Assembly: GCA_025698865.1 (NCBI GenBank)
Contig: JAILWQ010000002.1
Span: 394,385 to 458,384, forward strand
Source of the DNA: Erythrobacter sp.
Lineage (GTDB): Bacteria > Pseudomonadota > Alphaproteobacteria > Sphingomonadales > Sphingomonadaceae
Direction: 5' to 3'
DNA length: 64,000 bases
Part shown: positions 31,213 through 37,192 of the stretch, in pieces
Layout: each line of letters opens with the position of its first letter
Numbering within the stretch: position 1 is the first letter of the stretch
Notes under the pieces: model-generated
What the model was told of the DNA's origin: nothing
The model's input: the letters and a program-made list of their open reading frames with translations, nothing else
Databases searched by the model: none
Position numbers and translations under genes: made by a program

Positions 31213-31216
<4 letters not shown>
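30983..31216 (-). CDS. Small membrane protein, AT-richer than its surroundings
   Basis: 77 aa with two hydrophobic helices (about 10-30 and 45-68) and a basic end K-R-R-R-G-R, likely cytoplasmic. GC is about 52% (93 of 180 bases from 31021 to 31200), against 60-70% in single 60-bp lines of sufB and the DUF559 gene, which points to later acquisition. Yet it overlaps sufB and the DUF559 gene by exactly 4 bp on each side. I do not recognise the family. Confidence 0.65.
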
Positions 31217-32705
<1,489 letters not shown>

Positions 32706-32709
<4 letters not shown>

Positions 32710-33128
32710 GCCATTTCTTTCGCGGGCGCGGGATGCGTGCCCAGTTGAGTCAGGGGAATCGCCGCCAGCGCACCGCGCAGGGCGTCGTTGATGACCGGCC
32801 AGTGCGACCGGACGCTGCAATCATGGTCCACCACGCAAGTACCGCCGTCGATGCAGGCGGTGAGCGCGATCGGCCCTTCCACCGCCTCGACGATGTCGGC
32901 AACGCTGATCGCCGCGGCGGGCCGGGCGAGTTGAAGACCGCCGCCCGCTCCGCGCGTCGAGTGCAACAGCCCGGCAGCGGACAGCTTGCTCACCAGCTTC
33001 TGCACGGTGGGCAGCGGCAGGCCGGTCTCGACCGCCAGTTCGGACGCGCTGGTGCGAGCCCCGCCACAATGGCGGGCCGCGGCGCTCATCGTCAGGACGG
33101 CGTAATCGGCGAGGTTGGAAAGGCGCAT
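32706..33128 (-). CDS. Rrf2 family transcriptional regulator (IscR/SufR-like), head of the suf operon
   Basis: 140 aa. The winged helix (1-65) reads [14 protein letters not shown] and includes [18 protein letters not shown]. Three cysteines at C92, C98 and C104 have the spacing of the IscR [2Fe-2S] site, with a histidine shortly after. Such regulators sense cluster supply and control suf genes. As the first cistron it probably controls its own operon. Confidence 0.92.
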
Positions 33129-33220: not shown

Positions 33221-34150
33221 CTATGCGTCGCCCGCGCTCCCCGGCCCGTCGGGCGCCAGCTCGCGCAGGTTCCTGGAATCGAGCATCTCGCGAAGGAAGG
33301 GCGACTCGCCATCGCCGAGCCGGGCCGGGGTGCGACCGGCGAACAGGCGCAGTTCGCGGATCATGTGGGGCTGGTCGTAGAACGCTTCCGCGATCTCGGC
33401 CTCGTATTCGTCGCTCAGCATCGGCAGCGACAGCAGCGCCGCTGCTCGCAGCGCCCGGTACTTGCGACGCAACGCCACCGGGGCGAGGCCGAAATACCGT
33501 TCGATCAGACGCTGGGTCTGTCGCGCGGAATACCCGCTCTGTGCATAGAGCGCGTCCAGATCGGGCACCAGCGAGCGGGCGAGCCAGGCATTGGTAGCGG
33601 CGATCAGGCGCGCGTGGCCCGCCACGACCGGGCGGACCGCGCCCCGGATCATCTCGCCCAGCTGCACCGCGCAGGCCGGCCCATCCATTCGGCCGTCACG
33701 ATAGGCGGCGCACAGATCGCGGCCCCGGGCGACCAGTGTGGGGTCGAGCCAGTCGCCGGCATCGTAGAGCCGGTTGGCGTGTGCCTTCGCATCGAGCCCG
33801 GTGAGAGCTGCCCAGCCCAGCGGCGAAAGCGCCGCGCCGATGGCGTGGAACGGACCGTCCATCTTGAAATGCGCGGCCTGTGCGAAGGGCGTCAGAAGGT
33901 TGACTTCGTGCGAGGGATCGCTTCCCCCGCCGGGCAGCGCCATCGCCCCCTTGCCCATTGCGAACAGCGTTAGGTGGCCGATTGCGGCCGGCTGGATATC
34001 GTCGATCCGCGCATCGTCGCAGCGGAAATGATAGAAGGTGGTGACGTAATCGGCGAGTTCGGGCGGGGTACCGAGATAGTCGAGCGTGAATCGGCTCGGG
34101 GGCGTCAGACGCGACGCATCAACCCCAAGATTCATGCCCCCGTGAACCAT
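33221..34150 (-). CDS. AraC family transcriptional regulator
   Basis: 309 aa. An N-terminal cupin-like sensing region (about 15-190) precedes the double helix-turn-helix domain near the C terminus, with L-D-A-L-Y-A-Q-S-G-Y-S-A-R-Q-T-Q-R-L-I and F-G-L-A-P-V-A-L-R-R-K-Y-R. The ATG at 34150 is chosen because AAGGGG lies 6 nt upstream; an ATG 15 bp later is also possible. Longer in-frame starts would translate through a strong intrinsic terminator at 34222-34256. Ligand and targets unknown. Confidence 0.85.
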   Translation of the reverse strand: MVHGGMNLGVDASRLTPPSRFTLDYLGTPPELADYVTTFYHFRCDDARIDDIQPAAIGHLTLFAMGKGAMALPGGGSDPSHEVNLLTPFAQAAHFKMDGPFHAIGAALSPLGWAALTGLDAKAHANRLYDAGDWLDPTLVARGRDLCAAYRDGRMDGPACAVQLGEMIRGAVRPVVAGHARLIAATNAWLARSLVPDLDALYAQSGYSARQTQRLIERYFGLAPVALRRKYRALRAAALLSLPMLSDEYEAEIAEAFYDQPHMIRELRLFAGRTPARLGDGESPFLREMLDSRNLRELAPDGPGSAGDA

Positions 34151-34221: not shown

Positions 34222-34256
34222 CAAAAAAAGGGCGGCCTTCCGAAAGGAAAGCCGCC
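34222..34256 (-). terminator. Strong intrinsic terminator in the AraC gene leader
   Basis: The minus-strand RNA GGGCGGCUUUCC-UUUC-GGAAGGCCGCCC forms a 12-bp stem with a UUUC loop and one U-G pair, followed by seven U. On the plus strand the U-G pair would be a C-A mismatch and the T tract is absent, so it works on the minus strand. It lies 72 bp before the AraC-family start codon with no minus-strand gene ending before it. Confidence 0.85.
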
Positions 34257-34333
34257 CCTGTGAGTTGAGGAACCCGCCACATGAATGCGCCGAGCCCTTC
34301 GGGTCGCAAAACCCGGATAGCGTGGATCGATTG
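34222..34333 (-). ncRNA. Candidate small RNA or attenuated leader upstream of the AraC gene
   Basis: A -10-like TACAAT (34345-34340, minus strand) predicts a start near 34333; the -35 region is not convincing. The roughly 110-nt transcript would contain a hairpin with stem CGGGT/ACCCG, an unpaired stretch with CCUCAACUC (anti-Shine-Dalgarno-like), then the terminator. It could be a stand-alone trans-acting sRNA or a leader whose terminator controls read-through into the AraC-family gene. No Rfam family is recognised by eye. Confidence 0.4.
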
Positions 34334-34437
34334 CGAATGATTGTATGCAAGCGACATCATCTGAGGTCGCGGGCGATATTTTCTCTCGAATGTTCCACGC
34401 CTCGACAGTTTATCGTGACGCCAATAGGGCTTCGCCC

Positions 34438-35478
34438 ATGCTGTTCCCCCTCTTCAGGCCCGCCCTCTTCCGCATCGACCCCGAGCGGGCACACCGGTTG
34501 ACGATCGCGATGCTGAAAAAGGCGCCGAAACGCCGCTCGCCGGGGGCGGGGTCGGGGTCGGGGCGGCTGGCGACCGAAATTGCGGGCTTGCGATTTCCCA
34601 ATCCGGTCGGCCTCGCGGCAGGGTTTGACAAGGACGCCGAAGTGCCCGCGGCGATGTTCGGACTGGGCTTCGGCGCGGTCGAGGTCGGTTCGATCACCCC
34701 GCGGCCGCAGGCCGGCAATCCCAGGCCCCGCCTCTTCCGGCTGGTGGAAGACCGGGCGGTCATCAACCGGATGGGTTTCAACAATGGCGGCGCCGACGCC
34801 GCAGTCCAAAGGCTCGCCGGGCGCCGGCATGGACCGGGAGTGCTCGGCATCAATATCGGTGCGAACAAGGACAGCACCGACCGGATCGCGGAGTATGCGG
34901 CAATGACGCGCCGGATGGCCCCGCTCGCCGATTATCTCGCCGTCAACATTTCGAGCCCGAACACGCCCGGACTGCGCGCGCTGCAGGACGAGGCTGGGCT
35001 GACCGGGCTGCTCGATGCCGTGTTCGAGGCTCGGGGAACTGAGGGCCCGCCGGTCTTCCTCAAGGTCGCGCCCGATCTCGAACCCGCGGATATCGACGCC
35101 ATCGCCCGGATCGCCCTGTCCTCCGGGCTCGCCGGGCTGATCGTCTCGAACACCACCATTTCGCGTCCCGCGCTTCGTTCGGCCTATGCTGGAGAAACAG
35201 GCGGCCTCTCCGGCGCGCCGCTGCGTGACCTTGCGCTCGAGCGGGTACGCAATTTCCGCAAGGCCACCGGGGGGGCGATTCCGCTGATCGGCGTAGGCGG
35301 CATCTCCACCACCGAGGATGCCTGGGCAAGGATCCGCGCCGGTGCGAGCCTGGTCCAGCTGTACAGCGCCATGGTCTATGAGGGGCCGGCCCTGCCGGGA
35401 CGGATCGTCCGCGGTCTCGAGCGGCTGATGGACCGCGACGGGTTCGGCTCGATTGCCGAAGCGGTCGGAAGCGAATAA
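34438..35478 (+). CDS. pyrD: Quinone-dependent dihydroorotate dehydrogenase
   Basis: 346 aa, class 2 enzyme of pyrimidine synthesis, membrane-associated through its N-terminal helix (L-F-R-I-D-P-E-R-A-H-R-L-T). FMN and substrate motifs are complete: N-P-V-G-L-A-A-G-F-D-K, R-M-G-F-N-N-G-G, N-I-S-S-P-N-T-P-G-L-R with the catalytic serine type of class 2, K-V-A-P-D-L and G-V-G-G-I. ATG 34438 is the usual start M-L-F-P-L-F-R-P. The gamma-glutamyltransferase gene follows 10 bp after the stop. Confidence 0.95.
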   Translation: MLFPLFRPALFRIDPERAHRLTIAMLKKAPKRRSPGAGSGSGRLATEIAGLRFPNPVGLAAGFDKDAEVPAAMFGLGFGAVEVGSITPRPQAGNPRPRLFRLVEDRAVINRMGFNNGGADAAVQRLAGRRHGPGVLGINIGANKDSTDRIAEYAAMTRRMAPLADYLAVNISSPNTPGLRALQDEAGLTGLLDAVFEARGTEGPPVFLKVAPDLEPADIDAIARIALSSGLAGLIVSNTTISRPALRSAYAGETGGLSGAPLRDLALERVRNFRKATGGAIPLIGVGGISTTEDAWARIRAGASLVQLYSAMVYEGPALPGRIVRGLERLMDRDGFGSIAEAVGSE

Positions 35479-35488
35479 CGCGCTCGCC

Positions 35489-37192
35489 ATGCTGCGCCAT
35501 TTCCTCGCTCCGCTCGCCGCCCTCTCGCTCGCCGGATGCGCCACGCTCGCGCCTTCCGCACCCCCGCCGGCGGACACCGTAACCGGCAGTGTCAGCGCCG
35601 CCGACCCCCGCGCCGAGGACGCCGGGCGCGAGATGCTGCGGCGCGGCGGCGGCGCGACCGATGCCGCGATCGCGGTGATGCTGGCGCTGACCGTGGTCGA
35701 GCCGCAGAGTTCGGGCATCGGCGGCGGCGGTTTCCTGGTCAGGGGCACGCGCGAGGGTTCGGTCGAAACCTATGACGGCCGCGAAACCGCGCCTGCCGCC
35801 GCGACACCCGACTGGTTCCTGAAGGAAGATGGCACTCTCCCGCCTTTCGGCGAATCGGTGCGCAGCGGCCTCAGCGTCGGCGTCCCCGGCAATTTGGCGC
35901 TGGCGATGCAGGCCCATGCCGAGCACGGCCGCCTGCCCTGGGCCGAGCTGTTCGGTCCGGCGATCCGCCTCGCCCGCGAAGGCTTCCGGGTCAATCCGCG
36001 CCTGCGCGAATCGCTGACCTCCAGCCGGGACCGCGCCGCCCATTCCTCGCTCGGCCGCGAATTGTTCTACGACGAATCTGGCGAACCGCGCCCGGTCGGC
36101 TATCTCGTCACCAACGAACCGCTGGCCCGCTCGCTCGAAGCCATCGCCGCGGACCCGGCCGGGTTCTACACCGGCCCGGATGCGGCGGAATGGAGCGCGG
36201 CGATCGCGGGAGAGACGCCCCGTCCGCAGGGCATGACGGCCGCGGATTTCGCCGCCTACCGCGCAAAGCTTCGCGAGCCGGTCTGCGCATCCTACCGCGC
36301 CCACCGCGTCTGCTCGATGGGTCCGCCCACCTCCGGCGGCGTGGCGGTGCTGCAGATTCTCGGAATGCTCGAGCGGTTCGATCTGGCGGAGCTCGGTCTG
36401 CGCGACCCGGCGACGTGGCACCTCTTCGTGGAGGCCCAGCGTCTCGCCTATGCCGATCGCGAACTCTATCTTGCCGACAGCGATTTCGTGTCCGTGCCCC
36501 TGCCCGGACTGCTCGACCCGGCCTATATCGCGCAGCGCAGCGCGCTGATCGCAGAGGGATCGAGCCTTGCGGTAGCGGAACCGGGCCGGCCGGCCGGAGC
36601 CTCGCTTGCCCGAGCGGACGGTGACGAGCCGGAAGAGCACGGCACCACCCATTTCGCGATCGTCGATGCCGACGAGACGATGGTCAGCTACACCTCCACG
36701 ATCGAAGGGCCGTTCGGATCGGGCCTGATGGCGGGCGGGTTCTACCTCAACAACGAACTGACCGACTTCAGCCGCTCGCCGACGGTCGATGGCCGTCCGG
36801 TCGCCAACCGGGTCGAAGGCGGCAAGCGCCCGCGCAGCTCGATGTCGCCGGTCGTGATCTACGATCCGCAAGGGCGCCCGCTGCTCGCCATCGGAGCCGC
36901 TGGGGGCGCGACCATTCCGGTGCAGACCGCCCGCAGCATCGTCGGCATCATCGATTTCGACCTCTCCGCCGAGGAAGCGCTCGGCCTGCCCTTCATCATG
37001 GCGAATGGCGACAGCGTCTTCGTCGAGCAGGGCACCTGGCTCGTCGACGCAATCCCCGCCCTGAAGGCGCTGGGGCATGCGGACATCTCGGTGCGCCAGG
37101 TCGGGCTGAAGGCCGGGGCGGTGCTGCGCACGGAGGATGGCTGGGTCTCGGCCCGCGATCCCCGCATCGAGGCGCTCGTCGCCCTGCCCTGA
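35489..37192 (+). CDS. ggt: Gamma-glutamyltransferase, lipoprotein form
   Basis: 567 aa. The signal peptide ends in a lipobox L-A-G-C (about residue 16), so it is probably anchored to the membrane facing the periplasm. The autoprocessing and catalytic threonine is T386 in H-G-T386-T-H-F; the small subunit would start there. G-I-G-G-G-G-F and the later S-P-V-V-I and G-A-A-G-G-A-T substrate-binding stretches are present. It splits glutathione and other gamma-glutamyl compounds. A start at 35489 places the lipobox properly. Confidence 0.92.
   Translation: MLRHFLAPLAALSLAGCATLAPSAPPPADTVTGSVSAADPRAEDAGREMLRRGGGATDAAIAVMLALTVVEPQSSGIGGGGFLVRGTREGSVETYDGRETAPAAATPDWFLKEDGTLPPFGESVRSGLSVGVPGNLALAMQAHAEHGRLPWAELFGPAIRLAREGFRVNPRLRESLTSSRDRAAHSSLGRELFYDESGEPRPVGYLVTNEPLARSLEAIAADPAGFYTGPDAAEWSAAIAGETPRPQGMTAADFAAYRAKLREPVCASYRAHRVCSMGPPTSGGVAVLQILGMLERFDLAELGLRDPATWHLFVEAQRLAYADRELYLADSDFVSVPLPGLLDPAYIAQRSALIAEGSSLAVAEPGRPAGASLARADGDEPEEHGTTHFAIVDADETMVSYTSTIEGPFGSGLMAGGFYLNNELTDFSRSPTVDGRPVANRVEGGKRPRSSMSPVVIYDPQGRPLLAIGAAGGATIPVQTARSIVGIIDFDLSAEEALGLPFIMANGDSVFVEQGTWLVDAIPALKALGHADISVRQVGLKAGAVLRTEDGWVSARDPRIEALVALP

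Follow-up and report, generated by a model that had tools for sequence, protein, structure and literature searches.

The locus studied here raises the question of what an intrinsic terminator serves when it stands in front of a regulatory gene and no gene runs into it. In the window (the whole 64,000-nt stretch of DNA that was analysed), such a terminator occupies positions 34223-34259 of the minus strand, with a 14-pair stem at 34259-34228, a loop of 4 and seven T at 34229-34223, which would be read as seven U. It lies 72 nt 5' of the ATG (34150) of an AraC-type regulator gene (33221-34150, minus strand; its Pfam HTH_18 match, at 29.7 bits with E 8e-7, stays under the curated cut-off of 33.6), whose reading frame contains a second in-frame ATG at 34135. 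The original prediction had described this terminator and had stated that no minus-strand gene ends just before it, and both statements hold: the terminator is present by scan and conserved, and the gene on its other side, pyrD (34438-35478, plus strand; Pfam DHO_dh, 291.7 bits), runs divergently. A long minus-strand ORF at 34357-35748 is antisense to pyrD and ggt. A simple terminator scan over 3 kb returned 3 sites against 1.8 expected, so that the terminator is proven not by the scan alone but by its conservation, the stem being kept, with variable length among copies, in the alignment described below (A2). The fold of the 114-nt strand is 4.4 standard deviations better than that of dinucleotide shuffles (z -4.4; none of 200 equally good), much of this excess being due to the terminator itself. 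Between the two readings offered originally, a free sRNA or a regulated leader of the AraC-type gene, the comparative data favour the first and speak against the second, as the element persists beside pyrD where the AraC gene is absent; judged from sequence, the terminator most likely closes a free, separately transcribed sRNA rather than forming an attenuator of the AraC-type gene. Conservation, structure, promoter geometry and the existence of sibling genes are shown below by computation.

A covariance search in relatives, proposed together with the original prediction, was carried out with a model (R1) built from the 38 copies of alignment A2. The rows of A2 were excised using GCGACCCGAAGG, a string carried by all 30 first loci, and comprise 38 of the 39 excised copies, L046 having been excised but omitted. 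R1 recovers the element in 59 of the 60 genomes of the genus, G050 being the sole genome with no match, and scores the window copy at 75.8 bits; a BLAST search with 131 bases at E up to 0.01 likewise finds matches, some of them short, in 59 of 60. At the level of the family about 156 of 298 genomes and 64 of 96 genera carry a match, and among 289 genomes drawn over the class, a threshold of E up to 0.01 gives matches in 51, four of which belong to the same family. These family and class counts are approximate because strict filters were applied and, out of the hundreds to thousands of first candidates in each genome, just 15 or 16 were scored. Outside the family, no match among those listed for the class draw exceeds 34.8 bits, and we read these class-level matches as chance. 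Carriers named through a combined promoter and 5'-half pattern (93 stretches, 80 loci returned) include Qipengyuania, Erythrobacter, Aurantiacibacter, Tsuneonella, Croceibacterium, Croceicoccus and Novosphingobium; for Novosphingobium aromaticivorans, TSS-seq data are listed as public under GSE150944 (PMC7471390).

The predicted RNA consists, from 5' to 3', of an unpaired tail GCGACCCGAA, a stem-loop, a C/U-rich linker and the terminator. The alignment begins sharply at GCGACCCGAAGGGCTCG, and the first base, G34307, which we infer from this conservation and from promoter spacing, would give an sRNA gene of about 85 nt (34223-34307, minus strand) in place of the roughly 110-nt RNA originally proposed. 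The tail (34298-34307, minus strand) shows no variation in the 38 rows of A2, is present in 60 of the 60 top loci and is a probable base-pairing seed; the consensus fold leaves its ten bases unpaired, whereas the single-sequence fold of the 114-nt strand pairs the first bases with the non-conserved extension. Stem-loop 1 (GGGCUCG ... CGGGUUC; 34270-34297, minus strand) is paired in 99.2% of cells, against 33-43% for slid pairings, and varies among the siblings discussed below; two of its pairs are changed on both sides, a modest covariation in the main copies which 17 of 500 column shuffles equalled. The linker (34260-34269, minus strand), unpaired in the predicted fold and including most of the CCUC stretch, is conserved in its C/U composition rather than letter by letter in both A2 and the siblings, so that it may still pair with Shine-Dalgarno sequences. 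The most constrained part of the RNA, however, is the 5' tail and not CCUCAACUC, the accessible pairing stretch highlighted originally.

The comparison of promoter regions covered 60 loci, of which three are duplicates and 57 are distinct. The TACAAT sequence put forward originally is present at 34345-34340, about 80 nt 5' of the stem, but as half of a larger element, TGTCG-N6-TACAA (34341-34356, minus strand), and probably not as a -10 box, because it keeps a fixed spacing to a downstream TA in most loci and conservation starts sharply 10-11 nt past that TA. The probable -10 region is TATCCG (34314-34319, minus strand), with its TA at -12/-11. TGTCG-N6-TACAA is exact in 51 of the 57 loci and is followed by N21-TA in 47, comprising 35 with blocks at -49/-38/-12 and 12 in which all three lie one base further out; the TA itself is at exactly -12/-11 in 40 of 57, and in most others it is displaced outward by one base along with the upstream blocks. 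Among the ten non-matching loci the block is variant in L003, L013, L020, L029, L075 and L084, the TA is shifted by one relative to the blocks in L010 and L066, and no TA is found in L058 and L059. The blocks hence keep their mutual spacing and behave as one unit. Class II activators bind centred about -41.5, and the upstream element, centred at -41.5, is a candidate site of this kind, a placement which in turn locates the start at G34307 or directly beside it. No promoter was found at the locus by a simple sigma-70 scan, as expected if an activator is needed, and the 18-mer TGTCGCTTGCATACAATC occurs once in its own genome at up to 3 mismatches. The promoter element predicts an activator, which would bind TGTCG-N6-TACAA, centred at -41.5, and recruit RNA polymerase to a weak -10 box in a class II arrangement.

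Beyond the main copies, R1 returned weaker places in the genus, and from these we took all 19 with scores of 35 to 47 bits, plus a single one of the 29 that scored under 35. We read the resulting twenty as sibling sRNA genes that share the tail but have their stems rebuilt. All but one start with GCGACCCGAA, the exception starting with GTGACCCGAA; because R1 rewards 5' sequence, this shared seed is partly an effect of the search and cannot count as separate evidence; nor are the siblings, drawn from related species, independent events. In 19 of 20 the best stem begins at base 10 or 11, the exception being L399, where it begins at 14; there are 15 distinct 5' arms among the 20 and a mean stem score of 6.6 against 4.0 (standard deviation 1.7) in shuffles. 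A short linker follows, commonly resembling CGACUUU or UCUCCU, and every sibling has a terminator recognised by script. Several unlinked genes per genome with a common seed and different bodies are thus encountered in relatives, and the genome of the window shows one copy of the sRNA only. Upstream of nine of the twenty siblings we find ACCCAATTGGGT, centred at -42.5 in eight and at -41.5 in one (the palindrome that contains it lies at about -42 in L400, L401, L404-L406, L409, L410, L412 and L415). This palindrome is unrelated to TGTCG-N6-TACAA and suggests a second putative activator for one sibling class; an unrelated element placed equally far from an identical first base speaks for the start site and also for the activator reading. 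With one seed and unlike stems and upstream palindromes, the siblings could allow different signals to feed one set of targets.

A search for complements of the first 16 bases of the sRNA led to the 3' UTR of eipA (Pfam PF06577), whose product is described as a periplasmic envelope-integrity protein in Brucella (PMC10787603). The site lies between the stop codon and a hairpin; the stretch from eipA to an aminotransferase-like gene is conserved, with a strong hairpin, in L230-L233, L235-L237, L240, L242, L244 and L248. Of 58 loci in the genus, 50 were parsed (stop codon found by script) and 8 were not. The site scores at least 11 of 16 in 18 of the 50 parsed UTRs, 12 of which hold a perfect 16-nt complement, and is lacking in the other 32; in G007, G008, G023, G024 and G043 pairing is broken below the cut. 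Shuffled seeds (200) run against the same UTRs gave a mean of 0.135 and a maximum of 15 of 50. Bases 2-18 of the RNA pair with the UTR of their own genome at -31.1 kcal/mol, against -19.8 (standard deviation 2.4, best -30.0) in 300 shuffles, whereas the full RNA does no better with that UTR than shuffles, 57 of 300 being as low. By eye, part of the site can also pair with a stretch further downstream in this UTR, and such pairing might account for some of the conservation of the site. Outside the genus a ten-base site was found in one of 61 parsed UTRs (G109), 28 of the 90 loci not being parsed. We rejected eipA as a general target, on the counts of 18 of 50 within and 1 of 61 outside the genus and on real mismatches in three of the 18 (G033, G005 and G016), and regard its 3' UTR as a lineage-specific candidate sponge or target.

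The start regions of pyrD, AraC, rrf2 and sufB in the window pair with the RNA within one standard deviation of shuffles, and exact seed complements (CTTCGGGTCGC) number 5 and 12 in two genomes against 19 and 21 for a reversed-pattern control, most of them within likely coding frames by ORF reading. Elsewhere in the window's own genome (L337, G000:C35:145070-145085), GAGCCCCTCGGGTCGC, one base off the complement of the first 16 bases of the sRNA, follows the stop of an ORF that appears PRC-barrel-like by eye and precedes a terminator-like hairpin.

These results bear on an alternative in which the RNA binds a protein, for titration or as a scaffold, and GCGACCCGAA is the landing site of that protein rather than a seed for mRNA. 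Strong invariance of the 10-nt tail across many unlinked sibling genes would fit such a role, as would the failure to find a general mRNA target. The perfect complements to the 5' end in 12 of 50 eipA 3' UTRs argue against it, and so do the sites in which pairing is retained through G-U: 15 Watson-Crick pairs plus one G-U in the window's own genome (G000) and in G054, and 14 plus two G-U in G031. In G033, G005 and G016 the changes are real mismatches that break the pairing, a point on the other side. On balance we consider protein binding an unlikely function of the tail, and a pairing seed the better description.

Whether the RNA could instead be a leader in which a ligand, protein or RNA controls termination ahead of the AraC-type gene, or of the Rrf2-suf genes, is judged here mainly from gene neighbourhood. 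The position of the element on the strand of the AraC-type gene, upstream of it, is what such a leader would have, and terminators 5' of a same-strand gene are the common feature of attenuators and leader RNAs with intrinsic terminators. In the window an Rrf2-type regulator and SufB-like genes (31213-33128, named by eye) lie behind the AraC-type gene. Among the first 30 loci, divergent pyrD is found in 29 and an AraC homologue in 17; the one locus with no pyrD, L029, holds a second copy of the element in G005, where pyrD accompanies the main copy (L040). Of the 80 named loci, 74 have pyrD beside the element, and of the six misses L180, L184, L198 and L202 end close upstream while L152 and L171 do not. 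Sufficient DNA follows the element in 76 loci, and in 46 of these an AraC homologue starts within 500 nt downstream on the same strand. Of the 30 others, 19 have a SufB-like motif no further than 2.2 kb away, frequently at 600-700 nt, and 11 have none in that range; linkage to a downstream suf cluster is thus partial, and read-through into it may matter in those loci that have it. Stable linkage to one controlled downstream gene was therefore not observed in this set, and around the second copies L046 and L054 the 1.5 kb on either side contain no pyrD and no AraC. An attenuator should accompany the gene that it controls, yet here the RNA is constant while the downstream genes differ among relatives, and its most conserved part is an unpaired 5' end; no switch structure or antiterminator pairing was seen by eye or in one consensus fold. 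The leader reading was set aside on this synteny and strikes us as quite improbable. The element behaves instead as an intergenic gene with its own promoter (judged from conservation) and terminator, conserved independently of the neighbouring ORFs.

At gathering score, Rfam 15 offers no family that fits the element: the only match in the window is a tRNA gene at 1496-1569, and in 14 loci with the sRNA, siblings or the target site only tRNAs match. Membership of the element in the suhB/mmgR/alphaR8 family (RF00519), as a divergent representative, is scarcely credible, as its similar layout of hairpin, C/U-rich stretch and terminator is accompanied by a sub-threshold match of 15.0 bits (E 1.2) against a gathering score of 41, on which membership was rejected, by a rank of 12th among the 18 places in this genome, which has a true suhB (44.6 bits) at another position, and by a shared core that lies at the extreme 5' end here but in the middle there. 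The genuine suhB is found on the same contig of that genome, at G000:C11:116302-116380. The usual, though not invariable, neighbour of suhB/mmgR/alphaR8 is given as a putative N-formylglutamate amidohydrolase gene in PMC12559287; no such gene was found beside the element, whose neighbours are pyrD and AraC-type or suf genes. The same paper presents SisA-D of Caulobacter, of the RF00519 family, as siblings with a common 10-mer core and without a common promoter motif (PMC12559287). A suhB member is stated to act in a sphingomonad (PMC6563040), and SisA-D and their relatives resemble the element as short alphaproteobacterial sRNAs.

A sibling sRNA pair with an almost identical 5' end has been described as well (PMC12559287). 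The mode of working of the present RNAs would be like that of sibling sRNAs with a common seed, and no membership in a named family emerged. The pair in the cited comparison is presumably OmrA/OmrB, and RybB, a 5'-end seed sRNA of enterobacteria, is a further parallel; like the element they have a 5'-end seed, a stem-loop and a terminator, whereas the element belongs to another bacterial class and has more siblings with unlike upstream elements. We know of no sequence relation between them. Literature queries on sphingomonad sRNAs, the seed string and sibling sRNAs returned no description among the matches listed, in sources that cover subscription journals thinly; the family is apparently undescribed so far, and a description elsewhere is possible.

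Taken as a whole, a stand-alone, trans-acting sRNA gene with an activator-driven promoter, a 5' seed and siblings sharing that seed is, in our judgement, very probably the correct explanation of the locus; its transcription, the activator, seed function and targets are inferred. The gene would be read leftward from its own promoter, divergently from pyrD, into an RNA beginning with the unpaired GCGACCCGAA; regulation of mRNAs would most likely proceed by pairing of this 5' seed, perhaps assisted by the linker at Shine-Dalgarno sequences, and the siblings would keep the seed on different stems, one subgroup under a different palindrome at the same distance. A more specific proposal, in which the sphingomonad and erythrobacter siblings deliver one 10-nt seed to one target set under class II activators of their own, so that separate signals would converge, with the eipA 3' UTR, through its perfect complement, as sponge or target in part of the genus, is tentative and, to us, rather doubtful. 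The family is near-universal in the genus and widespread in a large environmental family, and it can now be found by model and used to search for a regulon. One seed behind unlike upstream elements at the same distance also poses the question whether several signals are routed via one post-transcriptional address. The operator-plus-TA pattern was sought in four genomes and occurs at 9 places, 4 of which are the sRNA itself; the other 5, against 2 for the reversed pattern, are too few for the claim of a regulon. TGTCG-N6-TACAA-N21-TA is also found 5' of a putative secreted protein gene in two genomes (L362 in G026 and L363 in G031), which possibly belongs to the same regulon.
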